A stretch of DNA of 64,000 nucleotides, from the NCBI GenBank assembly GCA_015075625.1, contig JABTTZ010000001.1, positions 1 to 64,000 of the forward strand. Reading direction: 5' to 3'. The position numbers and the translations under genes were made by a program. Below the pieces are notes generated by a model, which saw only the letters and a program-made list of their open reading frames with translations, did not search any database and was not told the origin of the DNA. Every line of letters begins with the position of its first letter. Position 1 is the first letter of the stretch. Shown here one piece after another: positions 1 through 22,904 of this stretch. The DNA is from Anaerolineales bacterium. GTDB lineage: Bacteria; Chloroflexota; Anaerolineae; Aggregatilineales; UBA2796.

Positions 1-338
1 ACGATTTGGGTGAAGGCTACCGCCGGGTACTGGTTAGCCCGTTGATACAGCCCCAGCACAAACCCCGCTGGCACGGTGAACACCCCTTCGCCTGTTTCCG
101 TCGCTGCTTCTTCAGGGGTGTGGTAGACACGGCGCAGATCAGGCGGTGGTGTGCCGGTCAGCGCCCCTGTCGGCGTGGGCGTGCCGAAGTTCGGCAGGAT
201 CAGAACGTGGCAGACCGCTGGGGGGAGGGTTGGGGTGGGGGTGGGCGTCATGGTTGGTGTCGGCGTCGCCGTCGGGAGGGGCAGACTCCCGCAGTCCCCG
301 CTAACGATCTGCGGGCAGTGTACACGATCCGCCGCCGG
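1..338 (-). CDS. Open frame leaving the window: Pro/Thr linker plus SH3-like segment, probable further module of the peptidase locus
   Basis: This minus-strand frame is open from the TAA at 341-339 to the window edge. It begins with Cys-containing residues, passes through a Pro/Thr-rich linker (TATPTPTMTPTPTPT) and continues into a segment with the pattern C-x-V, then YHTPEEAA, then VPAGFVLGLYQ. That pattern resembles the SH3-like segment that follows the junction in the two orphan peptidase modules further upstream. The only internal ATG is at 251-249, inside the linker, and no ribosome-binding site is visible. It follows propeller D by 28 bases, so I read it as the head of another module or a fragment of one. 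The start and function are uncertain. Confidence 0.45.
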
Positions 339-366
339 TTATTCTGGACGCTCCGCCACCGTCCGC

Positions 367-1551
367 CTACTCCCATGTGACCCCGCAGACGAAGACCAAC
401 TCCCCATCGACCCATATCCACTCGCCACCACCGCCGGGGCAGACGGGATCGCCGGGAGGAATGATGAAGCCGCCGCTGGGCGTGGGGTGAGGTGTGGGCA
501 CTACCGTTGGCACACCAGCGATCCCGCTGACATCCACCGTTTCCAAAATGGACTCCCCCGTACTGCTTACGCCAGCATAGGTGACAAGGTTATTGGTGGG
601 GTTCCAATTCACTGCGTTCAACTGCCCATTGATATTCAGAACGGTTGCCACATCTTCAGTCAAGAGATTGACAATGTAAAGCTCACCGTCATGTGACACA
701 ACCGCGATGAAATTCCACGTACCATCCCATGAAATGTCGGCAATGCTGCGCCTCGGTGCTGGCGGTATGCTGTCTGTGACTTCAATAGCATTTACACCTT
801 GAAGAGTATTTAGATTGTAAATTAGCAGAAAGCCAGTGTTATTCCCCCAAGCTATCTGAGTATTGTCTGGTCGAGGTTCTGTTGCACCCCCTTCAGCAGA
901 TCCCCCATATCTATTTTGAATATCTTCAACGCTGGGAACAATGAGTTCACCTGAAAATACATTTACTTTCGTTGCGCCATCTCCCAGCCATCCATTATCA
1001 CCCAACCAAACTCTTCCGGGTCCACCACCGGATAAATCTCCTTCTTGAAAGATTGACCGACTCTCTTGGTTATCCCATACACTCGTTTCATAACTGTATG
1101 TACCGACGACCACATAGCGCCCATCCACACTCCATGTAATCTTTTGTACTCCTTCTGGGATATTTTGAATAGAATCAAATGTGAAGAACCCATCAGGATC
1201 GCCTACGGCAAACTCGTAAACTAATTGCCACGAAGTGGTGTTCCAGATATACATCCTATTACCAATGCCAGCAGCGAGTCGTTCCCCTTGTGGACTCCAA
1301 GTAATAGATGCCTTGTACAACACAAGGGGGCGTGTAAAGTGAAAAATGTCTGTGCTTTGATCAGATACCCTAATGCGAAGCGTACCACTGTTATCCACCA
1401 TAGCCAGTCTCTCACCGTTGGGACTCCATGCCACATCAAGGATCATAGAAGGTGCGTTTTGTCCCCATAGCCTATTCACGTTAACGGCGAAAGAGAGTGC
1501 CGCAATTGCCAGTAGAATGAACACTTGAACGGCGCGACGTCGTATCGGCAT
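367..1551 (-). CDS. Secreted WD40-like beta-propeller D with conserved C-terminal tail
   Basis: The 394-residue product starts with a cleavable-looking signal peptide (about residues 1-30, ending near LWGQN). It then shows WD40/TolB-type blades such as DVAWSPNGERLAMV, ITWSPQGERLA, ITWSVDGRYVVVG and ISWDGTWNFIAV. A Pro/Thr linker (about 345-365) leads to a tail with CPGGGG, two Trp residues and a final Cys followed by WE. The tail is a diverged form of that in propellers A-C. The gene starts 3 bases after the stop of the broken peptidase gene, which implies one transcript. Propeller C is a close paralogue along its whole length. No catalytic residues are visible, and a binding or scaffold role outside the cytoplasm is inferred. 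Confidence 0.85.
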   Translation of the reverse strand: MPIRRRAVQVFILLAIAALSFAVNVNRLWGQNAPSMILDVAWSPNGERLAMVDNSGTLRIRVSDQSTDIFHFTRPLVLYKASITWSPQGERLAAGIGNRMYIWNTTSWQLVYEFAVGDPDGFFTFDSIQNIPEGVQKITWSVDGRYVVVGTYSYETSVWDNQESRSIFQEGDLSGGGPGRVWLGDNGWLGDGATKVNVFSGELIVPSVEDIQNRYGGSAEGGATEPRPDNTQIAWGNNTGFLLIYNLNTLQGVNAIEVTDSIPPAPRRSIADISWDGTWNFIAVVSHDGELYIVNLLTEDVATVLNINGQLNAVNWNPTNNLVTYAGVSSTGESILETVDVSGIAGVPTVVPTPHPTPSGGFIIPPGDPVCPGGGGEWIWVDGELVFVCGVTWE

Positions 1552-1554
1552 GGG

Positions 1555-3047
1555 TTACCAACCTTTCTCATCGAAGATGTTCTGCATGACGATGTGCATC
1601 CATTCCAGTCGGGCATCACCCGGATAGCTATCATCGTTGCCATTGAATGTATCTGGTCCGAAGATTCCCCAAGATTGATTGCGAAATCCGTTCCAAAATC
1701 CTGGTACACTTTCCCGATACGTAAACAGAACGTCACTTATAGTTCGGTAAACCCAATTCAGGAACATATCAGCGGCTTCTTCTTCGAGAACCAACACAGT
1801 AGAGTCTGAAGCAAACACTTCGGCTGGATGTTGCTGAAAGTCAGTGAAAATATTGTCAGGACCGCTTCCCCACCCGCGATCTCGTCTGATATATTGACTA
1901 GACTTGGTATTCCCAATAATTGTGAAGACACGACTGTTGACTACATAGACGCAAGTTGTGTCAAATTGCAATGGAGCAACTTGAGTTGGAATAGGAGAAG
2001 TTGAATCTGTACGAAGGGTGTCCCTTAAAAATGTGGGACAAATACCGCTTGATACCCCCTGAAAAGCAAGATTGAGCAAGCGGCAAGGTGATGTTGCCGA
2101 GGTCGGACTACAATTCGTTGAGGTCGTGCGATTATCGAAGACATGTCCCAGTTCATGCACCAAGAGATACTGCATGAACGCCAAGTTCGTTTGACCGCTC
2201 GCTCCAGCCAATATCATCTCACTACCAGCGGTAATGGTGAGAGTGAATTACAGACAATCGTTCGAGGGATTGGTGATGGTGCAGTTGTTGCGCCAGTTCC
2301 TTGAATGTAACGCAGCCGCCATCAGTGATGTTGTCGCTCGCATCATTCACATTATTTCCAAATGATACGCTCTTGGTTTCAGTCCTGAAGGAACTGTATA
2401 AGCGACGGCAATTTCTTGCGAATTTGGCGTACCCACTGCCTTATACAGCACGATGTGGTAGGGTATCCCCAGTGATCATGATCTGCCGGAATAGCTCTGG
2501 CGTTATGCGGGAGGATCTGATAAGCGGTCGAGGGCTGCTGCCGTCGTCACCACGCCTTTATAAATCTCGACGATTTCGGTTTCCGTCCAGACGAACGTGC
2601 TTCATTTCGCAACAACACGCCGTAATCCTGCTCAAGCTCAGTGAGCGCCGTTAAGGATCAATAACTGGGTTGTGAGTATATTACAAGGCGTGTCCTGCTG
2701 CTGTTGTGGTGTCTGTGTGACATTACCACCTCCTGCATAGAACCAGCGACCCACAGAAGCGGGATCGGTTGCGTTAGTGCGAATGCGCACAAGGTTGGGA
2801 TTTACGAACGATCTTAAATCAACCTCGATAATCGTTCCACTGGGAGACTCCTGTCGTTAGTTGCCGACCGAGCATCTCTAATGGCGTCGTGAAGTACGAT
2901 GGATCCCGTCCCTCTGCGACTGTCACTTTGCATGGGTTGCTGCGCCTGCCCAAAGCCCAACCCATCGGCATTGCTCTGCCCCGGCAGCGCCAGCACCACG
3001 CGCGGATTCGAGCCATCCACCTCCGCCAAGCGGTACTGAGTTTGCAT
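1555..3047 (-). pseudogene. Zinc peptidase module 1, frame-disrupted near-copy of module 2
   Basis: The intact 3' part (2217-1555) encodes a zincin core with HELGHVF near its start and the later EEEAADMFLNW stretch that may supply the third zinc ligand. The 5' part (2218 to about 3047) is nearly identical to the start of module 2 (5029 to about 5860) but carries at least eleven small insertions or deletions. Examples are an extra GG near 2235, a lost G near 2305, a lost C near 2384 and a lost A near 2513. Only two or three base substitutions accompany them. The reading frame is therefore broken in many places. The excess of one- and two-base changes, mostly in homopolymers, fits uncorrected long-read error in a repeated region at least as well as gene decay. 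If corrected, it would be an intact module of about 490 residues. Confidence 0.7.
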
Positions 3048-3190
3048 CGTGGGGGACGTCTGCTGGTAGACATAGGCGATCTGCGTCCCGTCGGGGGAGA
3101 GGTCAAACTGCCCGCCCTGCCATCACACGCCAATTCGCTACTCCCAATTTGGTTGGCAGATGAAGATGGGGAAGCCATTTTCCCACACCC
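2057..3190. repeat. Long near-identical block, copy 1 (pair with 4861-5995)
   Basis: From the shared CCCCTGAAAAGCAAG near 2057 to the end of propeller C near 3190, the sequence matches 4861-5995 almost base for base. To the left of 2057 the two copies become only moderately similar at once. The sharp edge suggests a recent duplication or gene conversion. Copy 1 differs mainly by small indels. Confidence 0.8.
2944..3119 (-). repeat. Junction repeat J1 (176 bp)
   Basis: This is one of four copies of a 176-bp sequence. It encodes the propeller blade GGQFDLSPDGTQIAYVYQQT and runs to LPGQSNADGLGFGQA. In this copy it lies between the end of propeller C and the broken zincin module. It is preceded on the minus strand by an in-frame TGA. 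Confidence 0.9.
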
Positions 3191-4346
3191 ACTCGCCGCC
3201 ACCGCCGGGGCAGATGGGGGCGCCGCCGGGAATGCCGGTGGGATGAGGGTAGGCGGTAGGGAGAGGGGGCGTCGCGGTTGGCGGTGTGAGGGTAGGCACT
3301 ACCGTTGGCACACCAGCGATCCCGCTGACATCTACCGTTTCCAAAATGGACTCCCCTGTACTGCTTACGCCAGCATAGGTGACAAGGTTATTGGTGGGGT
3401 TCCAATTCACAGTAGTTAACCGACCCGCCACGTTTAAAACAGTAGCTACTTCTCTTGTAGCTAAATTGACAACGTATAATTCTCCATCATTGGAGACCAC
3501 TCCTATAAATTCCCCAGTTCCATTCCAAGATATATCAGAAATGTTGCGTCTCGGCGCTGGCGGTGTACTGTCTGTGACTTCGATGCCTATGACAGCCCAC
3601 GTTGTGTTGAGATCGATGATCAGTAAATAGCCATCAATAGTCCCCCAAGCGATCTGACTGTTGTCTGGTCTGGGTTCGGTTGTGCCGCCTTCAGCATTAC
3701 CGCCAAATCGTCTTTGGATGTCTTCTGTTGGAGGACGGGTACGATCACCTGTAAATGCATTGAGCCAGTTTGCGCCATCTCCCATACGACCATCGTTATT
3801 GAGCCACACTCGCCCCGGTCCGCCACCTGATAAATCGCCATCGCGAAAAATTAGTTGCCCTTGCTGTGTATCCCAGACGCTTGTTTCATAGCTGTATGTA
3901 CCGGCGACAACATAGCGTCCATCTAGGCTCCATGTGATCGTCTGCACGCCTTCTGGGATATTGTCTACATCTATCCATGTGAAAAAACCGCTCGGTAACC
4001 CCACTTCATATTCATGCAGTAGTTGCCAGGTCTCCACATTCCAGATGTACATACGATTACCTATGCCTACGGTGAGTCGGTCTCCAAGCGGGTTCCACGC
4101 AACGGCTGCTTTAACCAATGTACTTGGGCGTGCAAACTCAAAGACTGTAGTATTTTGGCTTGGCACCGTAATATTGAAAGTGCCATCATTTGCAATACTA
4201 GCTAGCATTGTCCCATCGGGACTCCACGCAACATCCAATAGAACAGCCTCTACATTTTGAGCTGACCCAACGACAGGGTGGATACTGAATAGAACTAGCG
4301 TGATTGCCACCAGCAAAAGCTGAGACTTGAGAGGTATTTTGGGCAT
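3138..4346 (-). CDS. Secreted WD40-like beta-propeller C with conserved C-terminal tail
   Basis: The start at 4346 is chosen because it gives a signal peptide (MPKIPLKSQLLLVAITLVLF, cleaved near VGSAQ) and lies 4 bases after the stop of zincin module 2. The product has 402 residues. Blades include DVAWSPDGTMLASI, VAWNPLGDRLTVG, ITWSLDGRYVVAG and ISWNGTGEFIGVV. A Pro/Thr linker around residues 345-380 is followed by the tail CPGGGG-x-W-x-W ending in C-x-x-x-WE. The tail is almost identical to those of propellers A and B. Propeller D is its closest relative here. I infer an extracytoplasmic partner of the adjacent peptidase; no enzymatic motif is visible. Confidence 0.88.
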   Translation of the reverse strand: MPKIPLKSQLLLVAITLVLFSIHPVVGSAQNVEAVLLDVAWSPDGTMLASIANDGTFNITVPSQNTTVFEFARPSTLVKAAVAWNPLGDRLTVGIGNRMYIWNVETWQLLHEYEVGLPSGFFTWIDVDNIPEGVQTITWSLDGRYVVAGTYSYETSVWDTQQGQLIFRDGDLSGGGPGRVWLNNDGRMGDGANWLNAFTGDRTRPPTEDIQRRFGGNAEGGTTEPRPDNSQIAWGTIDGYLLIIDLNTTWAVIGIEVTDSTPPAPRRNISDISWNGTGEFIGVVSNDGELYVVNLATREVATVLNVAGRLTTVNWNPTNNLVTYAGVSSTGESILETVDVSGIAGVPTVVPTLTPPTATPPLPTAYPHPTGIPGGAPICPGGGGEWVWENGFPIFICQPNWE

Positions 4347-4350
4347 GTGG

Positions 4351-5844
4351 TTACCAACCCTTCTCATCAAAAATGTTCTGCATGATGATTTGCATCCATT
4401 CCAACCGTGCATCGCCAGGATAGGTGCTATCGCTACCGGTGTAAGCATTAGACCCGTAAGTACCCCAAGATTGATTTCGAAAGCCGCTCCAGGTTCCAGG
4501 CACACTGAGTGGATCGAGGTAAGTAAACGGGATATTGCTTATAGTCCGGTACACCCAATTCAAGAACATATCTGCAGCCTCTTCTTCAAGGACAAGCACC
4601 AGAGGATCTGAGGCAAATACATCGGCTGGATGCTGCTGGAAATCCGTGAAGATATTGTCGGGACCGGCTCCCCAACCCCTATCACGCCTACCATATTGAC
4701 CTAAATCACTTCGTATGCCGATCACTCTAAAAGAGTCTGCATCTTCCACACTGGTGCAAGTTGTCGTAAAGCTTAAGTCAGGACTCCCATCAGGAAGTTC
4801 TGAAAGCGCATCAGCACGGAGTGAGTCTCGCAAGTAGGCAGGACAACTTCCACTCGCAAGCCCCTGAAAAGCAAGATTGAGCAAGCGGCAAGGTGATGTT
4901 GCCGAGGTCGGACTACAATTCGTTGAGGTCGTGCGATTATCGAAGACATGTCCCAGTTCATGCACCAAGAGATACTGCATGAACGCCAAGTTCGTTTGAC
5001 CGCTCGCTCCAGCCAATATCATCTCACTACCAGCGGTAATTGAGAGTGAATTACAGACAATCGTTCGAGGGATTGGTGATGGTGCAGTTGTTGCGCCAGT
5101 TCCTTGGAATGTAACGCAGCCGCCATCAGTGATGTTGTCGCTCGCATCATTCACATTATTTCCAAATGATACGCTCTTGGTTTCAGTCCCTGAAGGAACT
5201 GTATAAGCGACGGCAATTTCTTGCGAATTTGGCGTACCCACTGCCTTATACAGCACGATGTAAGGTAGGGTATCCCCAGTGATCATGATCTGCCGGAATA
5301 GCTCTGGCGTTATGCGGGAGGAATCTGATAAGCGGTCGAGGGCTGCTGCCGTCGTCACCACGCCTTTATAAATCTCGACGATTTCGGTTTCCGTCCAGAC
5401 GAACGTGCTTTCATTTCGCAACAACACGCCGTAATCCTGCTCAAGCTCAGTGAGCGCCGTTAAGGGATCAATAACTTGGGTTGTGAGTACATTACAAGGC
5501 GTGTCCTGCTGCTGTTGTGGTGTCTGTGTGACATTACCACCTCCTGCATAGAACCAGCGACCCACAGAAGCGGGATCGGTTGCGTTAGTGCGAATGCGCA
5601 CAAGGTTGGGATTTACGAACGATCTTAAATCAACCTCGATAATCGTTCCACTGGGGAGACTCCCTGTCGTTAGTTGCCGACCGAGCATCTCTAATGGCGT
5701 CGTGAAGTACGATGGATTCCGTCCCTCTGCGACTGTCACTTTGCATGTGGGTTGCTGCGCCTGCCCAAAGCCCAACCCATCGGCATTGCTCTGCCCCGGC
5801 AGCGCCAGCACCACGCGCGGATTCGACCCATCCACCTCCGCCAA
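4351..5844 (-). CDS. Zinc peptidase module 2 (HELGH zincin) with truncated propeller head
   Basis: The frame encodes up to 497 residues. The first 30 residues are the propeller junction sequence (AEVDGSNPRVVLALPGQSNA and on). An SH3-like segment follows (about 32-115, with CKVTVAEG and GRWFYAGGG). The catalytic domain has HELGH at residues 295-299 and EEEAADMFLNW about 130 residues later, which may hold the third ligand. Several Cys pairs fit an exported protein. The start is doubtful: the ATG present in J1 and J3 is ATC here, leaving TTG at 5844, with no ribosome-binding site and no signal peptide. The related catalytic domain forms the C-terminus of the 9888-13697 protein. I read this as a headless C-terminal module that may need recombination or readthrough to be exported. 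Confidence 0.75.
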   Translation of the reverse strand: MAEVDGSNPRVVLALPGQSNADGLGFGQAQQPTCKVTVAEGRNPSYFTTPLEMLGRQLTTGSLPSGTIIEVDLRSFVNPNLVRIRTNATDPASVGRWFYAGGGNVTQTPQQQQDTPCNVLTTQVIDPLTALTELEQDYGVLLRNESTFVWTETEIVEIYKGVVTTAAALDRLSDSSRITPELFRQIMITGDTLPYIVLYKAVGTPNSQEIAVAYTVPSGTETKSVSFGNNVNDASDNITDGGCVTFQGTGATTAPSPIPRTIVCNSLSITAGSEMILAGASGQTNLAFMQYLLVHELGHVFDNRTTSTNCSPTSATSPCRLLNLAFQGLASGSCPAYLRDSLRADALSELPDGSPDLSFTTTCTSVEDADSFRVIGIRSDLGQYGRRDRGWGAGPDNIFTDFQQHPADVFASDPLVLVLEEEAADMFLNWVYRTISNIPFTYLDPLSVPGTWSGFRNQSWGTYGSNAYTGSDSTYPGDARLEWMQIIMQNIFDEKGW

Positions 5845-5995
5845 GCGGTACTGGGTTTGGATCGTCGGGGACGTCTGCTGGTAGACATAGGCGATCTGCG
5901 TCCCATCGGGGGAGAGGTCAAACTGCCCGCCCTGCCATCACACGCCAATTCGCTACTCCCAATTTGGTTGGCAGATGAAGATGGGGAAGCCATTT
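4861..5995. repeat. Long near-identical block, copy 2 (pair with 2057-3190)
   Basis: This is the intact-frame partner of the block at 2057-3190. It covers the 5' two thirds of zincin module 2, junction J2 and the 3' tail of propeller B. Confidence 0.8.
5759..5934 (-). repeat. Junction repeat J2 (176 bp)
   Basis: This is the second copy of the 176-bp junction, between propeller B and zincin module 2. It differs from J1 and J3 by a few substitutions, one of which changes the ATG of the MQTQYR stretch to ATC. An in-frame TGA precedes it. Confidence 0.9.
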
Positions 5996-7083
5996 TCCCA
6001 CATCCACTCGCCGCCACCGCCGGGGCAGACGGGGTCGCCGCCGGGGTATCCGGTGGGGTGAGGGAAGGCGGTGGGGAGCGGTGTGGGCGTTGGTTCCGTA
6101 TAAGCAGGGAGATACGCCATATAAAAATCACGGTCTTTCATGATGGCGACTTTGTTCCCATCAGGCGAAAACCAGAACCGGTCACCCTCGGCGGTATTCA
6201 GGTCGCTGCTAATCAATGTTGTCGCCCTAGTGAGGATGTTGTGTTCGTATAACCCTGTGCTAGTGATGTAGCGAACGGCATGATGCCCCGCCACGAATTT
6301 CCCAAACCCTAACCCCCTATCAACGAGGGGAACAAAAAGTGTTTCATGAGGCATTCGGGTTTGCCAGATGGTGAGACCGCGCTTGTCGGGAACACCCAGT
6401 AATAAATAGTCCCCATCCAGCGAAATATCATAGAGTTTAAAGTATGTTAAAGTAACATCTCCTACACGAATGCCATCATGTAAAGACACAATATTTGTAT
6501 TATTCAACCCCTCATTAAAATTGGAGATATAGAAGGTCTTCGGGGCAAGCGTGTGGTGATTCAGGATGAACGCCGAACTATCAGCACTCCACAAGACCTC
6601 GTAATTGGCTCTGAAATTATCAAAGTAATCAGTGTATGTACCCTCAAGGAGAACATGCTCCTCTGAGGTGAGATCCGCTAACCCAAGACTGTTGGCATTT
6701 CCAAAGGAGCCTTTGTCTGTCTCGTGGCTGGTGACATAGACAATGTACCGTCCATTGGGAGAGCGCAGGAAAAAACTCGTGTTTCCATCGGGGTCTGTAC
6801 CAACCTCAAAGGCTTGGCGTTGAGCCTCCGTTAATGGCACTTGCAGGGGCCATGCCCCCTCTGTGATGGCAAGCTGTTTGTTTTGCACGTCATAGGAAAA
6901 CCACTCATAGCCCTGAAAGATAAAATACTGGCTATCCCATGACCAACTATGCTCATAGTCACCAGAACCTAAATGGACAACGAAATCGATAGTTGCTTGT
7001 GCTTTTAACGTTGTCAGTTTGGCAATTATCAAAAAGATCGTTATGAACAAGATTGTAAAAACACGAATTCCGTTGCGACGCAT
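5953..7083 (-). CDS. Secreted beta-propeller B with conserved C-terminal tail
   Basis: The 376-residue product opens with a signal peptide (about 1-29, hydrophobic FTILFITIFLIIAKL). It is followed by repeats with HSWSWDSQYFIFQG, SADSSAFIL, DISLDGDYLLLG and WFSPDGNKVAIM, typical of TolB-like blades. It is less similar to A, C and D in the blades. The Pro/Thr linker and the tail CPGGGGEWMWENGFPIF with the final C-x-x-x-WE are nevertheless nearly identical to theirs. AAGGA lies about 10 bases before the ATG. It starts 18 bases after the M23 module ends, so it is probably cotranscribed with it. It is probably a binding protein outside the membrane, and its substrate is unknown. Confidence 0.85.
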   Translation of the reverse strand: MRRNGIRVFTILFITIFLIIAKLTTLKAQATIDFVVHLGSGDYEHSWSWDSQYFIFQGYEWFSYDVQNKQLAITEGAWPLQVPLTEAQRQAFEVGTDPDGNTSFFLRSPNGRYIVYVTSHETDKGSFGNANSLGLADLTSEEHVLLEGTYTDYFDNFRANYEVLWSADSSAFILNHHTLAPKTFYISNFNEGLNNTNIVSLHDGIRVGDVTLTYFKLYDISLDGDYLLLGVPDKRGLTIWQTRMPHETLFVPLVDRGLGFGKFVAGHHAVRYITSTGLYEHNILTRATTLISSDLNTAEGDRFWFSPDGNKVAIMKDRDFYMAYLPAYTEPTPTPLPTAFPHPTGYPGGDPVCPGGGGEWMWENGFPIFICQPNWE

Positions 7084-7101
7084 GATTTTGGAATCCTTTC
7101 G

Positions 7102-8724
7102 TTAGTGATTCGGTTCGGTAATGACCAGCGGGGAGGCAAATGCTTCTGTTCCGTATCCCACAAAACCCCTGTAGCCATTGTGCTGAACGATATACCCTGT
7201 ACCGGGTAGTGCGGAATAATAATCGAGGAAGCAATTCATTTGAACTTGCAACGAGGCTTGCCCCACCGTCTTTTGGGGATCAAAAGGGTTTGGCGCATTG
7301 GTTAAAACATCTGGTGAGAAAGCAAAACTGGCATCACTACTCGGCAGGAACTGCATGACATCGTAGAGATGCGGGGGGATAATTTCCCCCGCAGTGCCTA
7401 CCTGACGAGGCAAAATACCATTGGGCGCGATCTCTAGGCGTAGGGGTAAGGGCGGATCAGCCTCAGGGTTATAAACCTGCGAGCCATAGCTGTGAACTTC
7501 CAAATGGAGATGTGTCTCGCTAGAAATGCCATCCGCTGTGAATTGACCAATGACGCCAAGTTGCTCCCCCGTTCGGATCACCGCGCCCACATAGATGGAC
7601 TCAGCATGGATGGACTCCAGATGACCATAGAGAATATAGAAATGCCCATGCCGAATGATGACCGCATAGCCACTCGTTTCACTGACCGTCCCGCCCCACT
7701 GATAATGTGACCCTTCGTTGCCGTCTATGTTGATGCCCACCACAATGCCATCCGCTACCGCCCGTGCGTGGATCGGTCTATCCGTTGGGATGAAAAAGTC
7801 TGCGGCATGATGGGTGCCACGCGGGTAGTTGTGGTCTCGCCCTTGAATTCCCAAGGTATGAATTTCTCGTCGTGGGGTTTCGCACAAAATGGCAGGATCA
7901 ACGGGCCAATCAGAGAATTTGGGGGATGGATTACCCTCGTAAGTACGCCAAGATAACGCCGAGTCATTTGGATCGATGTCATAGCGCGTGGCACGAAGAA
8001 GTGTACTAAGGCACGGTGGAGGGTTGTTTTCATCGGCATAGAAGAACGATTTTTCCACCCATCCGGTTATGGCGTCACCTGATGGGGTTGTCCCTCCTTG
8101 AAGGAAAATCTGAGAGACATAAAACCATGTGACATTCTTGTAATCTACATGCTTCTCGATGATTTTGTAATCCCGTGAATTGGCACTCGCCGGAATCTTA
8201 GATGAGGGCAGATTATTGGAAACGGGAACCCTCAAAACATCATAGCTTGCCCCGTTCGTCAGATTGCCATCCACAATACATTCAGGCAGTTGAGCCTGAA
8301 CAGGGGCTGTAGCACAATCACCACTGACGAGTGTAAGCCCATAGCCAGCGTACATCCAGAAGCGAGCGGGTCCCGATTGAGGAGTAATATACGTCGCTTC
8401 CACCTCAACAATGTTATAGGCTTTGTCTTTGTAGTATTGCACGATATCGAGGGAGGCTACATCATCCTTTGAATAAGCCCCCTGATACGAGGCTAGATTC
8501 AAGGCTTTTTCAAAACGTCTGGCGGGCACACTATCTCGTAAGCGGAGGGCGTCTTCAGGATCACTAAACCCATACATGGTTTCGCCTGTGTTGATGATGA
8601 CGCGACAATATTGGGGATTCGCCTGCCCAAAGCCCAACCCATCGGCATTGCTCTGTCCCGGCAGCGCCAGCACCACGCGCGGATTCGAGCCATCCACCTC
8701 CGCCAAGCGGTACTGAGTTTGCAT
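7102..8724 (-). CDS. M23-family peptidase module with SH3-like segments and truncated propeller head
   Basis: The 540-residue frame begins with the junction sequence (MQTQYRLAEVDGSNPR and on). An SH3-like segment follows (about 38-120, CRVIINTGETMYGF to FWMYAGYG), then a second SH3b-like segment (about 150-225, ending GWVEKSFFY). The C-terminal domain is a LytM/M23 metallopeptidase. H305-x3-D309 (HHAAD) and H405-x-H407 (HLHLEV) are the zinc and catalytic motifs, with GHLESIH between them. M23 enzymes cut peptide cross-links in cell walls or other Gly-rich peptides. The ATG has no ribosome-binding site in front of it and there is no signal peptide, which is odd for an enzyme acting outside the cell. 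It sits between propellers A and B in the same transcript. Confidence 0.82.
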   Translation of the reverse strand: MQTQYRLAEVDGSNPRVVLALPGQSNADGLGFGQANPQYCRVIINTGETMYGFSDPEDALRLRDSVPARRFEKALNLASYQGAYSKDDVASLDIVQYYKDKAYNIVEVEATYITPQSGPARFWMYAGYGLTLVSGDCATAPVQAQLPECIVDGNLTNGASYDVLRVPVSNNLPSSKIPASANSRDYKIIEKHVDYKNVTWFYVSQIFLQGGTTPSGDAITGWVEKSFFYADENNPPPCLSTLLRATRYDIDPNDSALSWRTYEGNPSPKFSDWPVDPAILCETPRREIHTLGIQGRDHNYPRGTHHAADFFIPTDRPIHARAVADGIVVGINIDGNEGSHYQWGGTVSETSGYAVIIRHGHFYILYGHLESIHAESIYVGAVIRTGEQLGVIGQFTADGISSETHLHLEVHSYGSQVYNPEADPPLPLRLEIAPNGILPRQVGTAGEIIPPHLYDVMQFLPSSDASFAFSPDVLTNAPNPFDPQKTVGQASLQVQMNCFLDYYSALPGTGYIVQHNGYRGFVGYGTEAFASPLVITEPNH

Positions 8725-8796
8725 CGTGGGGGACGTCTGCTGGTAGACATAGGCGATCTGCGTCCCGTCGGGGGAGAGGTCAAACTGCCCGCCCTG
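8621..8796 (-). repeat. Junction repeat J3 (176 bp)
   Basis: This is the third copy of the junction, between propeller A and the M23 module. It is about 95% identical to the copy inside the main gene (11854-12029) by eye, with roughly nine differences. Identity to J1 and J2 continues for about 70 bases into the propeller tail. Confidence 0.9.
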
Positions 8797-8814
8797 CCAT
8801 CACACGCCAATTCG

Positions 8815-9870
8815 CTACTCCCAATTTGGTTGGCAGATGAAGATGGGGAAGCCATTTTCCCACACCCAGACGCCCCCACCGCCGGGGCAGACGGGATCGC
8901 CGCCGGGGGGAATGATCGCTGTTTCACCCACGTGCTCAATATGTAAATTAGCGCTCTCATCAACGAAAACAAACGAGCGACTATCCGCACCCCACGATAC
9001 CGAAGTGACGGGCGATCCAGTAGGGCTGGTGAACGTCTGAACAGGCTGCCATGTCTGGGCATCCCAAACCAATACCTTCCCATCCCGCCCACCTGTCAAC
9101 ACATAGCGCCCATCAGGACTCCAATCGACACTGTAAATGGTATCCGTGTGCTGACCATAAGTGTCAATGACAATTGCTCCGGTGGCAGCCTCCCACACGG
9201 TAAAACTGCCCGTTTGTACCCCACCCCCTCCAGCGACAAATGCTCCATCAGGTCGCCAATCCATGGATAACAAATAGTTATCACTGTCCTCAAATCGCTC
9301 ATTTTGAAATGCCACATAGTCGTAGAGAGCTATTGAATCGCCATTCGCAAATGACAAGCGTCGATTGTCAGGCGAAAAAGCAATGGGAGAGCCACGGTTG
9401 ATATCCCAAACAAGGTTTCCATCTGAAGTATTATGAATTGCGGTCATGGACACTTCAGGGTAACAAATTCCAAGCCATTCATCTGTGCTATTCCATGCCA
9501 CTGATGTTGCTGCTACAGTAGAATCATAATGTGTTCGATAGACTAGACGCCCTTCAATGTTCCAAATGATTACTTTACCATTGCAACCCCCACTAGCAAG
9601 CCAACGGCTATTATGACTCCATGCTAGAGAGCAAATCGCCGCCGTATGTTCCTCTAAGACGAATTCAAGCTGTTGTGTGGTGGCATCCCAAACAAACACA
9701 TAGCCTTGGTCGCCTCCACCAGCAATCCATCTACCATCGTAACTCCAAGCTGTAAAGCGAAGGTTCGTTAGCGTGAATGATTGCGCATCGCTAGGCGTGC
9801 TGTAAATTACTCCAAAACAGCAAAGGAGGAGAATCAACCCCAGACGTTTGGGTAAAGAGACTGTGTTCAT
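8815..9870 (-). CDS. Secreted WD40 beta-propeller A with conserved C-terminal tail
   Basis: The ATG at 9870 is chosen over one at 9900. It has GAGGT about 10 bases upstream, gives a clean signal peptide (MNTVSLPKRLGLILLLCCFG) and does not overlap the preceding gene, whose stop is 17 bases away. The 351-residue product has the most regular WD40 blades of the four propellers: WDATTQQLEFVLEEH, LAWSHNSRWLASGG, IIWNIEGRLVY, WSPDGRYVLTGGRDGKVLVW. It ends with CPGGGGVWVWENGFPIF and C-x-x-x-WE. There is almost no Pro/Thr linker. It directly follows the complete peptidase gene and is probably its partner. Confidence 0.88.
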   Translation of the reverse strand: MNTVSLPKRLGLILLLCCFGVIYSTPSDAQSFTLTNLRFTAWSYDGRWIAGGGDQGYVFVWDATTQQLEFVLEEHTAAICSLAWSHNSRWLASGGCNGKVIIWNIEGRLVYRTHYDSTVAATSVAWNSTDEWLGICYPEVSMTAIHNTSDGNLVWDINRGSPIAFSPDNRRLSFANGDSIALYDYVAFQNERFEDSDNYLLSMDWRPDGAFVAGGGGVQTGSFTVWEAATGAIVIDTYGQHTDTIYSVDWSPDGRYVLTGGRDGKVLVWDAQTWQPVQTFTSPTGSPVTSVSWGADSRSFVFVDESANLHIEHVGETAIIPPGGDPVCPGGGGVWVWENGFPIFICQPNWE

Positions 9871-9887
9871 GGTTTGCTTACCTCGCT

Positions 9888-12800
9888 TTAGTTTTTCCAA
9901 GTGGTGCTATTCCCATCGAAAATGGCTTGCAGGACACGATTCATCCAATCAAAGCGCTTGTCACCGGGACGGTGGGCGGTGTATTCACAGCCAAGATATT
10001 TTCGTTGGCAGTAGGCAACATTTAGAGAAACCTCGATGCGCCATGCACGGTTCTTGAACCCTGTATCAAGTGAGAGATCATCCAAGACCATGCGATAGAC
10101 CCAATTCAGAAACATATCCGCACCAGTTTCTTCATATTCTTCCGCCTGACTTCCGCCAGCATCGTAGGGCTGTGGAACATCAAAAGCATTTTGTTGGAAA
10201 CGTCGCCCTACGCCCTCATTTATTGTTGCGGGACCGCTCCCCCAGCCATCTTTCCCGCGTTGCCAATCCAGAACACTTTGTTGGACGACTACACCCATTA
10301 CTGGACGTTCCTCAAAACGTAAATCAGTGCGTAAATTGTCCCGAATCACTCTTTCCGAATTGATCTGCCGCCTATTTTCTTCACTCGGATCTTCGATGTA
10401 GTCGCCCAAGCCAACATTTAATAGATAAGGATTACCACGCCCGCTGCGGTAGTAGAAAACATGCCCCAATTCATGGACAATGGTGTGTTCGCTCATGACG
10501 GCTGTCGCGGCATAGTTACACTGAATCAGGGCATCTACGCCTTGCGGTGTGCCAATGGCAGTTGCCTCACAATGGGTCGTTTGCGCTCCGGTTTGACGCA
10601 TGATACGAATCAACGTTGGGGCAGAGGGGTTGGATGCCGCCATGACGCGCCGAAACACATCGCTTGGCGCGTTTCGCCCTTCGGCGGGAATGCCACTGGT
10701 GTTGCCGATCTCCATGTGCCGCGTGTGCATCGCCAATGCCAATGCCGTTTTGCGCACACCGGCGAGGATGTTCAGTTTTTCGAGGGTTGACCATCCCCCA
10801 GTCGCCTCCACGCCGTATTTTGCCAATTCGAGGTCAGGGTTAATCGTTGGCGGTGATGGTGGTATCACCAAAACAGCGGAAGAACGTCCCCAAGAAGGTG
10901 CGATGTCCCCATCAATTCCGGCGGTGATGGGCGTTAAGGCGCTATTCTGGATGGGTGTGGCTGTCCAGAGTCGACGATTGCCGGGGCGCTCTAAGGTCAC
11001 CGCCACACTACTCCCATCCCGACTGCTCCCCGTGCGGTTAGAAACAAACAGGAAAGAATTGCCATCCGGTGACCATGCCGGGCTGTCATTCCACCACCCC
11101 GCGCCGTCCGTGACCCGAAAGACACTCGCCTGCGTTAAAGGAAGATCGAAATCAATGCAATAGATTTCGGATGATCCCCCCTCTTCGGAGACAAAAGCGA
11201 TACGGTGTTTTCCTTCCGCCGTCAAAACAGGCATCCATGCCGAATCATAAGCAGGTTCGGCTACAGGAATAGCGGTTTCCAGTCCAGTCGCTATCTCAAG
11301 GATGATCAGTCGCCGCTTGGGATCGCGTGTTCCCGGTGGCGGTGTAGGCGTTGGTGTAGAGGGAGGCGGATCAAGGCGGTTGTCCCCAATCCGCACAAAT
11401 ACAATCCGCGTCCCTTCCGGCGACCATGCCGGACTGGTATCCCATGTCCCCACGTCACCCGTCAGCGAGGTTAATGGCATCGGCTGTCCAGTCGCAAGGA
11501 TAATCATCCAAATGTTGCTGCGCCGCCCATCATTGTCTGAAGTAAAGGCAATTCGAGTGCTATCTGGCGACCACGCCGGTTCATCTTCATTGACAGATGG
11601 GGAATTGGTCAGATTGATAGGATTGGTCCCATCGGCGTTCATGATAAAGAGATCACGATTGCCATTTAGCGTGGAAATATAGGCAATTCGTGTCCCATCG
11701 GGTGAAAAAGCAGGTTGGGTATCGGTGACGGTATTCTCAGTAAGTTGCTGAAGCCCTGACCCATCAGGATTCGCTGTGAAAATTTCTAAATCGCCCTCAT
11801 TGCCAGTGCGAAATTCATCGCGTGCTGAGGCAAAGACAATTCGTCCCCCCGATGCTTGCCCAAAACCCAACCCATCGGCATTGCTCTGTCCCGGCAACGC
11901 CATGACCAAACGCGGATTCGAGCCATCCGCCTCCGCCAAGCGGTACTGAGTTTGCATCGTGGGGGACGTCTGCTGGTAGACATAGGCGATCTGCGTCCCG
12001 TCGGGGGAGAGGTCAAACTGTCCGCCCTGAACCAATGTCGTCCCGTAGTAGACTGCTGTCGCCACATCGTTCACCCGCCGGATCACCCCATTGAGCGTGT
12101 AGTACAAGCGCGTCCCATCGGGCGACCACTGCGGGAAGGCAGGGCGTCCGCTGTCTCCGTAGTAGAGGTAGACGAGGTGAGCTGTCTGTGTCCAAGCGCC
12201 GAATGTATCTCGCCGCAGCAGCCACAAGCCATAGGGGTCAAAGGGGTTTGCCGAGGCGCGGTGGGTGAGGGCAATCGTCGTCCCATCGGGCGAGAAGGTA
12301 GGGTAGCGCGGGTAGGGCATCGCGTTGTAGGGTGGGACGCCAATCGGTGTTGGACTCAAGCGCTGTGTGCCATCCGCCTTGACCAGCCAAACCGCATCGT
12401 AACGAGCATGGTGGCGATTCGAGTCAAAGAGGAGATACACCCCATCCGGTGACCATGTGGGGTGACTATCCTCCCAACCCCAGGACTCGGTGACCTGAAT
12501 TTCCCCCCATGTGAGCGTGTCGTAAACAAAGAGTTCGCCGCGTCCGTGCCGCCACGATTGATAGGCAGCCTTCTGTCCGTCCGGCGACCAGACGGGCGGG
12601 CTGCTCATCTGCAATCCGCTGATTTGGCGGGTTGTGCCATCGGGCATGAGCGTGTAGAGACAGGTATTTCCCTGCCCGGCTTGCGGACACCCGCCGTAGG
12701 AGAGCGGTGAGCGCAAATCGGGGGGCGGGACGGGGGCATTGGCGGGCGGTGGGGTAGCGGGGATAGGCGGCGTTTGTGGTGGCGGTGAGGCGCAGCCAGA

Positions 12801-13697
12801 GGTTTGGGTCGGATCGCTCACCGCAGCGGGCATGAAGGTGACGCTTGTACTGACCGCATCCGCCACAAAGGTGGTCTCGTTCACCTCTGGCACACCGTCC
12901 GCCCCCCACCAATTTCCACTGGCGTCAAGGGGGCTTTCTGCGCCGTTGAAAACCGCCCCGCCGCCATTGCCATAATTTCCCTCAAAATAGCTTTCATGAA
13001 TGGCTGCCGTCCCACCCTCGGCATTGTAAATCGCTCCCCCTTGTGAGGCACGGTTATTCAGAAAACGTCCACAGGTGATAGACATTTGCCCAACATTATA
13101 GATCGCCCCACCGACTGCCGCTGCGCTCCGTTGGCGGTGGTGGGCGAAGGTCGTCCGGCTGATGAGCAGTTCACCTTCATTGATGATTCCCCCTTCCGCC
13201 GCCGTCGGGTCGCCAGTGTCAATCACCGCGTCAAGGATATGGAGCGCACCATAGTTCGTGATTGCCCGTCCGTTTCCCTCCATGACCCGCAGCGTGGCGT
13301 GGTGGATTGTCAAATCACCCTGCGGCATGATGATGATCGGCGTGATGCCGGGGTAGAGCGGGGTTTCCAGATAGCGAAAGAGGAGGGTGGCGTTGTTCCC
13401 GTAGAGGGTCAAGTTTCCTCGCACGGTGGGGAGGATGGGTTGAGAGGGCGAGCCGGGGAGGGCAAAGGTGTACGTCCCTCCTTCGAGGTAGATTACCGTT
13501 GCCACATCGCCAAACTCTGCGGCGTGGTTCGCGCCCGCCAACGCCTCGGTGAGCGCCAGCGCGTCCCCCGCCGCGATGAGGTAGGTTTGGGTTGGCGTCT
13601 CTCCCTGTGAGTGTACGGGAGATAAGGGTATGGTGAGGGTGTAAAACGCTAGGGTAGCGAACAGAAGGGCAATGAACAAACGCATCCGACGGGACAT
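9888..13697 (-). CDS. Main gene: secreted beta-helix / TolB-propeller / zinc peptidase fusion, 1269 residues
   Basis: The signal peptide is residues 1-30 (MSRRMRLFIALLFATLAFYT). Residues about 35-300 look like a right-handed beta-helix of the kind that starts with a repeated GGAIYN / GALHILD pattern. A Pro-rich linker (about 305-330) leads to TolB/DPP-like blades from about 335 to 930 (VWSPDGQKAAYQ, TWSPDGVYLLFDSN, FSPDGTRIAYIST and others). The C-terminal domain is a zincin with HELGH at 1075-1079 and EETGADMFLNW farther on as a possible third ligand. The 176-bp junction encodes residues about 557-615, in the middle of the propeller. It is the first gene after the promoter at 13738-13765 and the only peptidase in the array with a signal peptide. 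Its target is unknown. Confidence 0.88.
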   Translation of the reverse strand: MSRRMRLFIALLFATLAFYTLTIPLSPVHSQGETPTQTYLIAAGDALALTEALAGANHAAEFGDVATVIYLEGGTYTFALPGSPSQPILPTVRGNLTLYGNNATLLFRYLETPLYPGITPIIIMPQGDLTIHHATLRVMEGNGRAITNYGALHILDAVIDTGDPTAAEGGIINEGELLISRTTFAHHRQRSAAAVGGAIYNVGQMSITCGRFLNNRASQGGAIYNAEGGTAAIHESYFEGNYGNGGGAVFNGAESPLDASGNWWGADGVPEVNETTFVADAVSTSVTFMPAAVSDPTQTSGCASPPPQTPPIPATPPPANAPVPPPDLRSPLSYGGCPQAGQGNTCLYTLMPDGTTRQISGLQMSSPPVWSPDGQKAAYQSWRHGRGELFVYDTLTWGEIQVTESWGWEDSHPTWSPDGVYLLFDSNRHHARYDAVWLVKADGTQRLSPTPIGVPPYNAMPYPRYPTFSPDGTTIALTHRASANPFDPYGLWLLRRDTFGAWTQTAHLVYLYYGDSGRPAFPQWSPDGTRLYYTLNGVIRRVNDVATAVYYGTTLVQGGQFDLSPDGTQIAYVYQQTSPTMQTQYRLAEADGSNPRLVMALPGQSNADGLGFGQASGGRIVFASARDEFRTGNEGDLEIFTANPDGSGLQQLTENTVTDTQPAFSPDGTRIAYISTLNGNRDLFIMNADGTNPINLTNSPSVNEDEPAWSPDSTRIAFTSDNDGRRSNIWMIILATGQPMPLTSLTGDVGTWDTSPAWSPEGTRIVFVRIGDNRLDPPPSTPTPTPPPGTRDPKRRLIILEIATGLETAIPVAEPAYDSAWMPVLTAEGKHRIAFVSEEGGSSEIYCIDFDLPLTQASVFRVTDGAGWWNDSPAWSPDGNSFLFVSNRTGSSRDGSSVAVTLERPGNRRLWTATPIQNSALTPITAGIDGDIAPSWGRSSAVLVIPPSPPTINPDLELAKYGVEATGGWSTLEKLNILAGVRKTALALAMHTRHMEIGNTSGIPAEGRNAPSDVFRRVMAASNPSAPTLIRIMRQTGAQTTHCEATAIGTPQGVDALIQCNYAATAVMSEHTIVHELGHVFYYRSGRGNPYLLNVGLGDYIEDPSEENRRQINSERVIRDNLRTDLRFEERPVMGVVVQQSVLDWQRGKDGWGSGPATINEGVGRRFQQNAFDVPQPYDAGGSQAEEYEETGADMFLNWVYRMVLDDLSLDTGFKNRAWRIEVSLNVAYCQRKYLGCEYTAHRPGDKRFDWMNRVLQAIFDGNSTTWKN
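11854..12029 (-). repeat. Junction repeat J4, inside the main gene
   Basis: This is the in-frame copy of the 176-bp sequence within the TolB-like propeller of the main gene. Outside the 176 bases it shares no obvious identity with the three downstream copies, so the repeat has sharp edges on both sides. Confidence 0.9.
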
Positions 13698-13737
13698 AAG
13701 AAGGCAATCTCGCGGGTGTAATCCTAGACCGCCGCTA

Positions 13738-13765
13738 ATATTACCCCCCCCCCGTACAATGTCAA
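13738..13765 (-). promoter_or_regulatory. Sigma-70-type promoter with a G10 tract in the spacer
   Basis: On the minus strand TTGACA (13765-13760) is followed by 16 bases and TAATAT (13743-13738). Ten of the 16 spacer bases are consecutive G (13753-13744). The start codon of the main gene is about 34 bases after the predicted transcription start. A change in the G tract would alter the 16-base spacing, so slippage could change promoter strength. Confidence 0.65.
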
Positions 13766-13824
13766 GGGATGGGGGGATAGGGTGATTAGGGGGGAGTCTA
13801 TACCACGCCGTTGAAAACCCGTGC

Positions 13825-13871
13825 TTGACTTTTTGCCGAACCTGCTTTAAGCTAGTTCGTTGCGGTACAAT
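13825..13871 (+). promoter_or_regulatory. Possible promoter region for rpoB
   Basis: TTGACT (13825-13830) is followed after 17 bases by a weak TAAGCT. A better -10, TACAAT (13866-13871), lies farther on with a poor -35. One of these probably drives rpoB, divergent from the peptidase array, but I cannot choose between them. Confidence 0.35.
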
Positions 13872-13989
13872 CCAAAATTCATGAACTATTCTCCAAGTAA
13901 ACCCAATCAGACCCTTTCAACTGTGAACCGCCCGGTTTTCTACAGTTGATTTGTCGTTTCCAGTACCTCTAGCACACGGGAGCGATTCG

Positions 13990-16900
13990 ATGAAAAAACG
14001 ACTGGACACGAAGAACTACGCCCGAACACACGATGTGCAGGAACTGCCCTCACTCATTGAGGTGCAGCTTCAATCCTTCGAGTGGTTCAAAACCGACGGT
14101 ATGGGCGAATTGTTCTCGGAGATCAGCCCGATTGAAAGTTACAATGGTAGTCTCAAACTCTATTTCCCCGGACCTCAACCGGAAACGGATGAATTTGGTC
14201 TGAAATATTGGTTTGAAGACCCCAAACACAGCGAGGAACTGTGCCTTGAGCGGGACATGACCTACTCTGCCCCGCTTTATGTGCGGGTGGCGTTGGTCAA
14301 CAAAGAAACCGACGAGATTCTCGTCAACGATATTTTCCTCGGTGATTTTCCCTTGATGACAGAGAACGGCACGTTCATCATCAATGGCATTGAGCGCGTC
14401 GTTGTCAGCCAGTTGATTCGCTCCCCCGGCGTCTATTTTGACGTGGCAGAAGAACGTACCACCGGGCGCAACCTCTCCAATGCGAAGCTGATTCCTGATC
14501 GCGGCGCGTGGATGGAATTTGAAACGCGCAAGAGCGACTACATCACGGTCAAGTTCAACCGCAAACGCACCGTCCCCGTGACGATTCTGCTGCGGGCGTT
14601 GGCTGCCGTCTCTGATGATCACGATGATCTCTCCCCGATCCGCACCGGATCGGATGAAGAACTCTTGGCGATCTTCAAAGATGTCGATGATGCCGACGAT
14701 CATCACTACCTTGAAGCGACGATCAAAAACGAGCCGCAGTGGGATATTAAAGAAGGGCGCACCATTGGCGAAATGGCGCTCTTGGAATTCTTCAAGCGGA
14801 TGCGCCCCGGCGACCCGCCCAACCTTGACAACGCCCGCGAGTATTTGCGCCAGCAGTTGTTCGATCAGCGCCGTTATGACCTTGAGCGCGTCGGGCGCTA
14901 CAAGCTGAACCAACGGATGGGCTTGGACACGATCATTGATCGCAAAATCCGCACGGTGACGAAGTACGATCTCGTCAAGGTGGTGGAGCGGATGATCATG
15001 ATCAACAACCGCAAGGCAGAGCCAGACGACATTGATCACCTCGGCAACCGCCGCGTGAAAACGGTTGGCGAATTGATCCAAAGCAAACTGCGCGTTGGCT
15101 TGCGCCGTACCGAGCGCGTGATCCGCGAGCGGATGACGATGAAAGAGGCAGACCGGATCACCCCCGTGACGCTGATCAACATCCGTCCGATTGTTGCCGC
15201 CGTCCGCGAATTTTTCGGCAGCAGCCAACTGAGCCAATTCATGGAGCAGACGAACCCGCTGGCGGAACTGACCCATAAACGTACACTCTCGGCATTGGGT
15301 CCGGGCGGTTTGCGCCGTGAACGTGCCGGTTTCGATGTCCGCGACGTGCATCACAGCCACTACGGGCGCATCTGCCCGATTGAAACGCCGGAAGGTCCGA
15401 ACATTGGCTTGATTGGGCGTTTGGCAACCTATGCCCGTGTGAACCCTTATGGATTCATCGAAACGCCCTACCGAAAAGTCGTCAAAGAGCTTGCGCTCAA
15501 CGACGAGCGCTTGTTTGGACGGCAGCTTAGTGAAGACCTGACGAACGCCGATGATGAGGTGATCGTTGAGGAAGGGACGGTGATCACCGAAGGGCTGCTG
15601 AAGAAATTTAAGCAGATGAAGATGAAGACCGTCCCCGTTCGCCCCTTCGTCAGCGGGGAGACAGTTTACCTCTCGGCTGATGAAGAAGATCGCTTCATGA
15701 TTGCCCAAGCCAACGCCACCCTCGATGAACACAGCCAGTTCACTGGGGATCGCATCTCGTCGCGTTTCCATCAGAAGTTTTTGGACACAACGCCCAACCG
15801 CATCGATTATATGGACGTAGCCCCTCGGCAGATCGTTGGTATTTCAGCGGCGTTGATCCCCTTCTTGGAGCATGACGACGCCAACCGCGCCCTGATGGGA
15901 TCGAACATGCAGCGTCAGGCTGTGCCGCTGCTGAACCCCGATGTACCGATTGTTAGCACGGGGATGGAAGACCAAGCCGCCTACGACTCCGGTCAGGTGC
16001 TGTTGGCGGAAGCTGCCGGCGAGGTGATCAGTGTGACGGGCGATAAGGTCGTTGTCAAAGACGACAGCGGCGACCTGCGCGAATATCGCCTGCGGAAATA
16101 CACCCGCTCGAACCAATCGACGTGCATTGATCAGCGCCCAGTGGTGGAAAAAGGGCAGCGTGTGAACCGCCGCGATGTGATCGCGGATAGTTCCTCAACA
16201 AAATCAGGCAATCTGGCGCTTGGTCACGATGTGGTCTGTGCCTTCTTGTCATGGGAAGGGGGCAACTACGAAGACGCCCTCTTGATCAGCGAACGCCTGC
16301 TGCGTGAGGACATGTTCACCTCGATCCACATCGAAAAACATGAGATCGAAGCGCGGGATACCAAACTGGGACCGGAAGAAATCACCTATGACATTCCCAA
16401 TGTCGGTGAAGAAGCGCTCAAAGACCTGAATGAGGATGGTATTGTCCGCATTGGGGCAGAGGTCGGTCCGAACGATATTCTCGTTGGAAAGATCACCCCG
16501 AAGGGCGAGAAAGAACTTAGCCCAGAGGAAAAACTGCTGCGGGCAATCTTTGGCGAAAAAGCGCGGGAAGTGAAAGATACTTCGCTGCGTTTGCCGCACG
16601 GTGAACGAGGTAAGGTGGTTGATGTGAAAATCTTCAACCGCGAGGAACACCGCGATTTGCCGGCTGGTGTTGAGCAGATGGTGCGCGTCAGCGTGGCGCA
16701 GCGCCGTAAGCTGACACAGGGCGACAAAATGGCGGGGCGGCATGGGAATAAAGGTGTGATCTCGAAGGTTGTGCCGTTGGAAGACATGCCCTACCTTGAG
16801 GATGGGACGCCCATCGACATCATCTTGAACCCCCTCGGCGTGCCGGGGCGTATGAACATTGGTCAGGTCTTGGAAACGCATCTCGGTTGGGCAGCGGGGC

Positions 16901-17916
16901 AGCTTGGCTTCCGCGCCGTGACTCCCGTTTTTGACGGGGCGGAAGAACGCGAGATTGAGGCAGAACTCGGACGGGCGTGGCTGATCGACTACACATGGGA
17001 AGCGATCACCGAACGGGCGTGGGCATGGATCAATCCGCAAGGTTACAGCGAAGAAGAGCTGGAAGATGATGAGGAAGTCCGCCGCTTGTTCGTGAGTGAT
17101 TGGCTGGCGGGCAAGCCCGACTATGACAGCGATCTGCTGATGTTGGAGCATATCTATCTGCGCCGTTCTGTCCTGCGGGAGTGGGTGCGCGAACAAGGTT
17201 GGAATCCTGATGATGTGCTGATCTTTGATAATACAGGGATGTCCTCAGCGGAGCGGGATCGCATTGATGCCAACGCCATTGACCTAACTCTATATGTGTG
17301 GACGGCATTTGCTTCTGGCGAAGAAACGCCGGCAGGTTTAAGCCGCGAAGAACTGCGCGAGTATGCGCACCGCATCTCGATCCGGACCGGACTCCCCGTG
17401 CCGATCTATGGCAAGCAGATGCTCTACGACGGAAAAACGGGGCAGCCTTATGATCGCCCAGTGACCATCGGTGTGATCCACATGCTGAAGCTGGCGCACT
17501 TGGTCGAAGACAAGGTTCATGCCCGCTCAACGGGACCATACAGCCTTGTCACACAGCAGCCGCTTGGTGGGAAGGCACAGTTTGGCGGTCAGCGCTTCGG
17601 GGAGATGGAAGTCTGGGCGCTGGAAGCCTATGGCGCAGCGTACACCCTCCAAGAAATGCTCACGGTGAAATCGGACGACGTACAAGGGCGGGTGAAAACC
17701 TACGAAGCCATCGTCAAGGGCGACCCGATTGAAGAACCGGGGATTCCGGCGTCGTTCCGCGTCCTCGTCAAGGAATTGCAATCGCTTGGCTTGGCGGTGG
17801 AAGCGATCACCGAAGCGGGCGATGTGATCACCTTTGGGCGTGAGCGGGAAGATAACCGTCAGCCGAATATCAAAACGGGATTGTTCGGCTTAGAGCCAAA
17901 CCGTCAGGGAAATTAG
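13990..17916 (+). CDS. rpoB: RNA polymerase beta subunit
   Basis: The 1308-residue protein has the beta-subunit landmarks in order. These are the rifampicin-pocket region ([10 protein letters not shown] and [15 protein letters not shown], about residues 405-475), [16 protein letters not shown] and [10 protein letters not shown] in the catalytic core, and [21 protein letters not shown] with [15 protein letters not shown] near the C-terminus. The ATG at 13990 is preferred because GGGAG lies 7 bases upstream; a TTG at 13951 is in frame. About 100 residues (near 1020-1120) interrupt the C-terminal half before LPVPIYGK and look like a lineage insertion. Two pocket positions are unusual: E419 (E. 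coli D516) and T432 (E. coli R529). rpoC does not follow; the next gene is a flippase on the same strand. Confidence 0.98.
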
Positions 17917-22705: not shown

Positions 22706-22904
22706 GACGATCTTCCTCCTGTTGTATCTACATAATCTGTACGTGAGGAGTGCGGTGGGGTTGCGCCGAGGGGGTGTAAATTTTTGGTAAAAAGACGCTG
22801 CGTAGGGCAGTCGTTCATTGGTCGTCCCCCATTCAGCGTTTGGTGGGGACGCATTCTCGGCGTATCATGGCGTATGGTATGAGGGGAAGAAAGGATTGCC
22901 GATC

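Follow-up and report, generated by a model that had tools for sequence, protein, structure and literature searches.

A tract of ten consecutive guanines separates the –35 and –10 hexamers of the promoter ahead of a 1269-aa gene, and this promoter belongs to a block of promoter, leader and start codon that recurs at several places in the same genome before paralogous genes. On balance, and with rather more confidence than doubt, we favor a reading in which the G tract is a slippage-tuned spacer and the multi-copy block drives a family of paralogous head genes for secreted proteins. The stretch of DNA analyzed as a whole (the window; 64,000 nt) is contig C1 (JABTTZ010000001.1) from its position 1, such that window position 1 corresponds to C1:1.

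An initial sequence-only reading of the site had described TTGACA, a 16-base spacer with ten Gs and TAATAT, and both direct reading and a promoter scan bore this out. The plus strand reads ATATTA-C10-GTACAATGTCAA across the promoter and, on the minus strand, the 16-base spacer (13759–13744) consists of TTGTAC followed by G10. In the scan, the same site ranked top of four in the interval 12000–16000, for which shuffles expect 1.7. TAATAT agrees with the –10 consensus at only four of six positions, and AATATT, 17 bases from the –35, would serve equally well as the –10 element. The distance to the main gene, given earlier as about 34 bases, was corrected to 40 bases between the –10 and the ATG. 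Taken together, the promoter at 13738–13765 is real with high probability.

Table. Features of the window and copies of the promoter block in the source genome (window positions unless a contig is named)
Feature	Position	Strand	Remarks
–35 hexamer TTGACA	13760..13765	–	direct reading and promoter scan
G10 tract in promoter spacer	13744..13753	–	direct reading; G9 in paralogous copies B, C and D; A plus G8 in E
–10 hexamer TAATAT	13738..13743	–	spacer 16; direct reading and promoter scan
Promoter-leader-start block, 83 bp	13686..13768	–	94% identical, common to loci B and C
Divergent neighbor, presumably rpoB	13990..17916	+	recognized from sequence
Head gene, 1269 aa	9888..13697	–	heads C-terminal cassette array; ATG at 13697
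Joint, 173 nt, within head gene	11857..12029	–	92–95% identical to joints of three cassettes
WD40-like gene behind head gene	8815..9900	–	ends in shared tail GGDPVCPGGGG..WENGFPIFICQPNWE
Cassette 1: joint and C-terminal domain	7102..8799	–	peptidase M23 match; without start before joint
Shared-tail gene, partner of cassette 1	5953..7083	–	
Cassette 2: joint and HELGH domain	4351..5937	–	
Shared-tail gene, partner of cassette 2	3138..4505	–	
Cassette 3: joint and HELGH domain	1555..3122	–	frameshifted behind joint
Gene with tail variant FVCGVTWE	367..1551	–	near end of contig C1
Block copy A	window		G10; intact gene
Block copy B	C1 near 1557600		G9; intact gene
Block copy C	contig C5 near 17250		G9; intact gene
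Block copy D	C1 near 458670		G9; gene broken after short start
Block copy E	C5 near 22440		A plus G8, TTGATA; truncated gene
Block copy F	contig C4 near 255230		G6; decayed remnant

A run of ten Gs is by itself compatible with chance: the window contains two such runs against 0.46 expected, and at least two were present in 11 of 100 dinucleotide shuffles. Across the genome there are 106 windows of nine G, and the 78 distinct tracts of at least nine G that were studied cover 102 of them. Only four of the 78 sit between a –35 matching at six of six positions and a –10, and each of these is a copy of the same block. The pattern TTGACA, eight or more Gs and TANNNT matched once in the window and in none of 100 shuffles. 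Over 154 genomes of the order, the pattern matched five times, namely in four copies of the single promoter block in the source genome and once in genome G117, where the match precedes a different kind of gene; the reversed pattern, used as a control, had no match in these 154 genomes. As the arrangement recurs as a single block, a chance G run was rejected as a full account of the site.

Searching the genome with the downstream half of the block finds five copies (A to E); a search with the upstream half brings in one more, which has decayed (F). Eight to ten Gs are kept in all five of copies A–E. In the comparison of A with B as in that of A with C, the common stretch sets in ~3 bases ahead of the –35 and gives out within a few codons of the ATG. 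Beyond these limits, the upstream DNA of A is unrelated to that of B and C and the coding DNA is strongly diverged, with head proteins that are, over part of their length, 41% (B) and 39% (C) identical to that of A. We compared the blocks from CTTGACA to the ATG, leaving out the G tract (62 positions). Each of the three pairs with intact genes (A–B, A–C and B–C) shows two differences, and the seven pairs involving a broken-gene copy (D or E) show 4–13. Identity over coding bases 46–600 is 0.49, 0.53 and 0.57 for the same intact pairs, on a baseline of 0.45–0.46 in pairs with D, where the gene is lost. The coding remnants of B and E are 0.81 identical, yet their block differences still lie within the range of 4–13. 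Small as this sample is, and with D and E possibly differing in age, the block is constrained before intact genes and appears relaxed once the gene dies, as would be expected if selection kept promoter, leader and start in working order. The sole indel in the block among A–E is the extra G of the window copy, inside the tract. G10 thus stands against G9 across three otherwise near-identical intact copies; the difference is one between paralogs, not between cells, and as such could be old.

Owing to this extra base, the spacer measures 16 bases in copy A versus 15 in the other four. Sixteen bases also separate the elements of the best site before rpoB (TTGACN-16-TANNNT) in all ten other genomes of the family (loci L264–L273), sites that are orthologous, so that the ten cases are not ten independent facts; upstream of the source genome's own rpoB, the same search returned no site at its thresholds. 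Public genomes, scanned with TTGACA-G8+-TAANAT, gave at least 121 matches in at least 119 stretches. Among the matches listed, the spacer is 16 in 47, 15 in 26 and 14 in three cases. The pattern permits as many combinations at a spacer of 14, and the clustering at 16 and 15 therefore suggests that G-tract spacers elsewhere, too, are found at promoter-like distances.

We propose that the G tract acts as the adjustable spacer of a block composed of –35, G tract, –10, leader and start codon. Replication slippage in living cells would gain or lose one G and so shift the distance between –35 and –10 by one base. With G10 the distance becomes 16 bases, the rpoB spacing of the family, for which reason the window copy is predicted to be the stronger state; with G9 it is 15 bases, and expression is predicted to be weaker. 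Each head gene would in this way assume its own stochastic expression level, and variation of this kind might be of benefit. The tract is probably a slippage-prone expression dial, length-dependent expression is most likely its function, and phase variation would be the best explanation of the block. Of the earlier proposal, the promoter itself is now well backed, by a repeated and constrained block ahead of paralogous genes with a 9/10 G difference between copies, and the phase variation is inferred.

A fixed promoter would be the first competitor to this proposal. The spacer would be frozen, inherited along with recently spread copies, its length would rarely change and it would have no role in switching. 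The 15-base spacer in four of five copies is in line with this view, as is the presence of mutS in the genome, on account of which MutS loss was also discarded as a cause of raised slippage. A recent common origin may likewise hold, given that a 101-base block query of the 154 genomes of the order matched the source genome only, the 153 others being without the block. However, the genes that follow the intact copies have diverged strongly in their coding DNA, which implies that these copies are not recent, unless the block moved alone, and the single length difference lies within the tract. We therefore regard a fixed promoter as unlikely, if worth keeping in mind.

That the true window tract is G9, lengthened by a homopolymer error of the assembly, we hold to be improbable. 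The frame is kept in 33 of 35 G9 tracts in testable coding contexts, which renders assembled lengths of nine credible. Tracts of at least ten can barely be checked in coding frames: two were testable in this one assembly, one in frame and one shifted, and the window's G10 could hence be off by one. The promoter block and its G run stand in any case.

Alternatively, the block might chiefly serve recombination that swaps head genes between loci, with the G run being incidental or an aid to recombination. Copies C, D and E are indeed located at array boundaries, behind a tail gene and ahead of a head gene, and cassettes are clearly shuffled between loci. Yet the stretch common to A, B and C spans promoter to start, and the block drifts after gene breakage as a working promoter would, making a primary role as homology arm quite improbable; this reading and that of a length-tuned promoter are not mutually exclusive. 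Hardly credible, finally, is a translational switch with a start before the tract, in which tract length would set the reading frame: the window frame is open upstream of the ATG through G10 to 13916, but in copies B and C, whose frames start at DCLLM, a TGA in the same frame stands immediately ahead of the conserved ATG, so that the open frame in the window comes from one base difference and such a switch is disfavored as a conserved design.

Returning to the slippage-tuned promoter, the gene that it would drive encodes GGAIYN-type repeats, TolB/PD40-like propeller repeats and a HELGH-containing C-terminal domain that is 35% identical to that of cassette 2; searched by sequence against the PDB, the last 353 aa of the protein retrieved no match. 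The N-terminus is signal-peptide-like as judged by eye, and the protein is probably secreted. The surface location envisaged by the sequence-only reading would be conjectural. Placing the whole array under the promoter likewise proved too strong. As the three cassettes behind the head gene have no start codon before the joint, control by the promoter would most plausibly be limited to the head gene and its immediate partner.

In all three cassettes, the joint is in the same frame as in the head gene, and in this arrangement they look like storage copies. A tail gene follows each C-terminal unit of the window, and the array runs up to the contig end. One C-terminus has an M23 match and the others carry the HELGH motif; no immunity family was among the matches obtained for the array genes. 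Tail matches number 27 in the source genome, one in the same-genus genome and none in nine other family genomes. Arrays of headless cassettes with conserved joints and tail genes are present in the window (1–12029) and at five further loci (L062, L063, L086, L087 and L090). Their layout varies: in A the cassettes follow the head gene, in C most of them precede it, and in array D the block is situated at the far end, ahead of the broken gene. The head gene of locus B carries a different joint. From this joint on, its C-terminus and partner align over 2079 bp with a cassette unit of locus C at 86% identity, which we take as good evidence that sequence was once exchanged or copied between stored units and a site of expression. 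It may tentatively be suggested that two layers operate here, with a G-tract dial at each site and a C-terminal half that, together with its partner, is replaced from headless cassettes via the joints. If true, this would lead to combinatorial variation in which ends are made and how strongly, and on/off variation and part-swapping may coexist.

Beyond the source genome, an exact 20-mer of the block had no match in public genome contigs, where records of the own or a very near genome were possibly left out, and a degenerate 21-mer had none in viral contigs. In G001, a genome of the same genus, no such array or tract occurs within the 1.5 kb ahead of rpoB; since other DNA is found there, conserved synteny beside rpoB was dismissed. 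Four head-gene homologs (two each in G001 and G010) have readable upstream DNA, which contains no G tract; in a fifth (G001 contig C193), the upstream region is cut off by the contig end.

Length-tuned poly-G promoters have been described mainly in host-associated pathogens. In the relevant passages of PMC7864442, the promoter of tp0126 (an OmpW homolog of Treponema pallidum) has a poly-G between –35 and –10 whose length sets the spacing, with best transcription at 17 bases, and porA of Neisseria meningitidis has a poly-G in the spacer, the spacing governing transcription. A homopolymer of at least eight bases between –35 and –10, by which phase-variable promoters of the porA/tp0126 type are recognized, is present in the window, and if switching is confirmed the promoter would work like these two. 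Unlike the case studied here, tp0126 is a single pathogen gene with published length and expression work, and porA is described in those passages as a single locus, with no cassette array (PMC7864442); here, several near-identical copies have spacings of 15 and 16. A general survey of homopolymer tracts, in the parts pertinent here, deals with tracts inside coding genes (PMC2831843).

The cassettes, in turn, resemble those of Neisseria MafB islands, which according to excerpts of PMC4287609 combine a full-length secreted-protein gene with alternative C-terminal cassettes, some of which have no initiation codon and carry a short motif also present in the full-length gene. Two traits by which MafB, Rhs and CDI systems are identified were found: a head gene plus headless cassettes with an in-frame homologous joint (173 nt), and an expressed C-terminus matching a silent cassette elsewhere (locus B versus C). 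In contrast to MafB, the C-termini are peptidase-like and are partnered by secreted WD-like proteins with a shared tail; an immunity gene was not recognized, and the head promoter bears a G tract. What sets the system apart from these known kinds is the combination, the multi-copy promoter block and the host; no such system was found in open-licence literature on Chloroflexi/Chloroflexota phase variation or metagenome-assembled poly-G promoters. The poly-G device appears here as a multi-copy block heading a cassette-exchange gene family. With three loci in a single cell whose tracts can each be counted, a concrete test becomes feasible. To judge from the public-genome scan, other uncultured groups seem to have multi-copy poly-G promoters as well.

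Other poly-G sites were observed as well. Within the window, a C10 run on the plus strand (24350–24359) is located near the end of a 570-aa frame (22818–24530) and is a possible coding slippage site. Tracts of G10–G11 at L030, L096, L109, L112, L133 and L138 are flanked by a long open frame to one side and by a far shorter one to the other; they could reflect genes subject to slippage, errors of assembly or simply the ends of genes. Clostridia MAGs (L148, L167, L195 and L197; L147, L158, L161, L178 and L215) contain recurrent sites of the form TTGACA-AAAA..GC-G8/G9-TAAAAT, most of them with an inverted repeat behind; such sites could represent a repeat element rather than gene promoters. Lastly, an uncultured Bacilli MAG (L157, L174, L176 and L216) harbors four promoter copies of the form TTGACA-CC-G9/G10-TAATATATAAT, three with G9 and one with G10, which have nearly the same leader and, in reading frames read over 400 bases, the same first residues MRIINKKYL.
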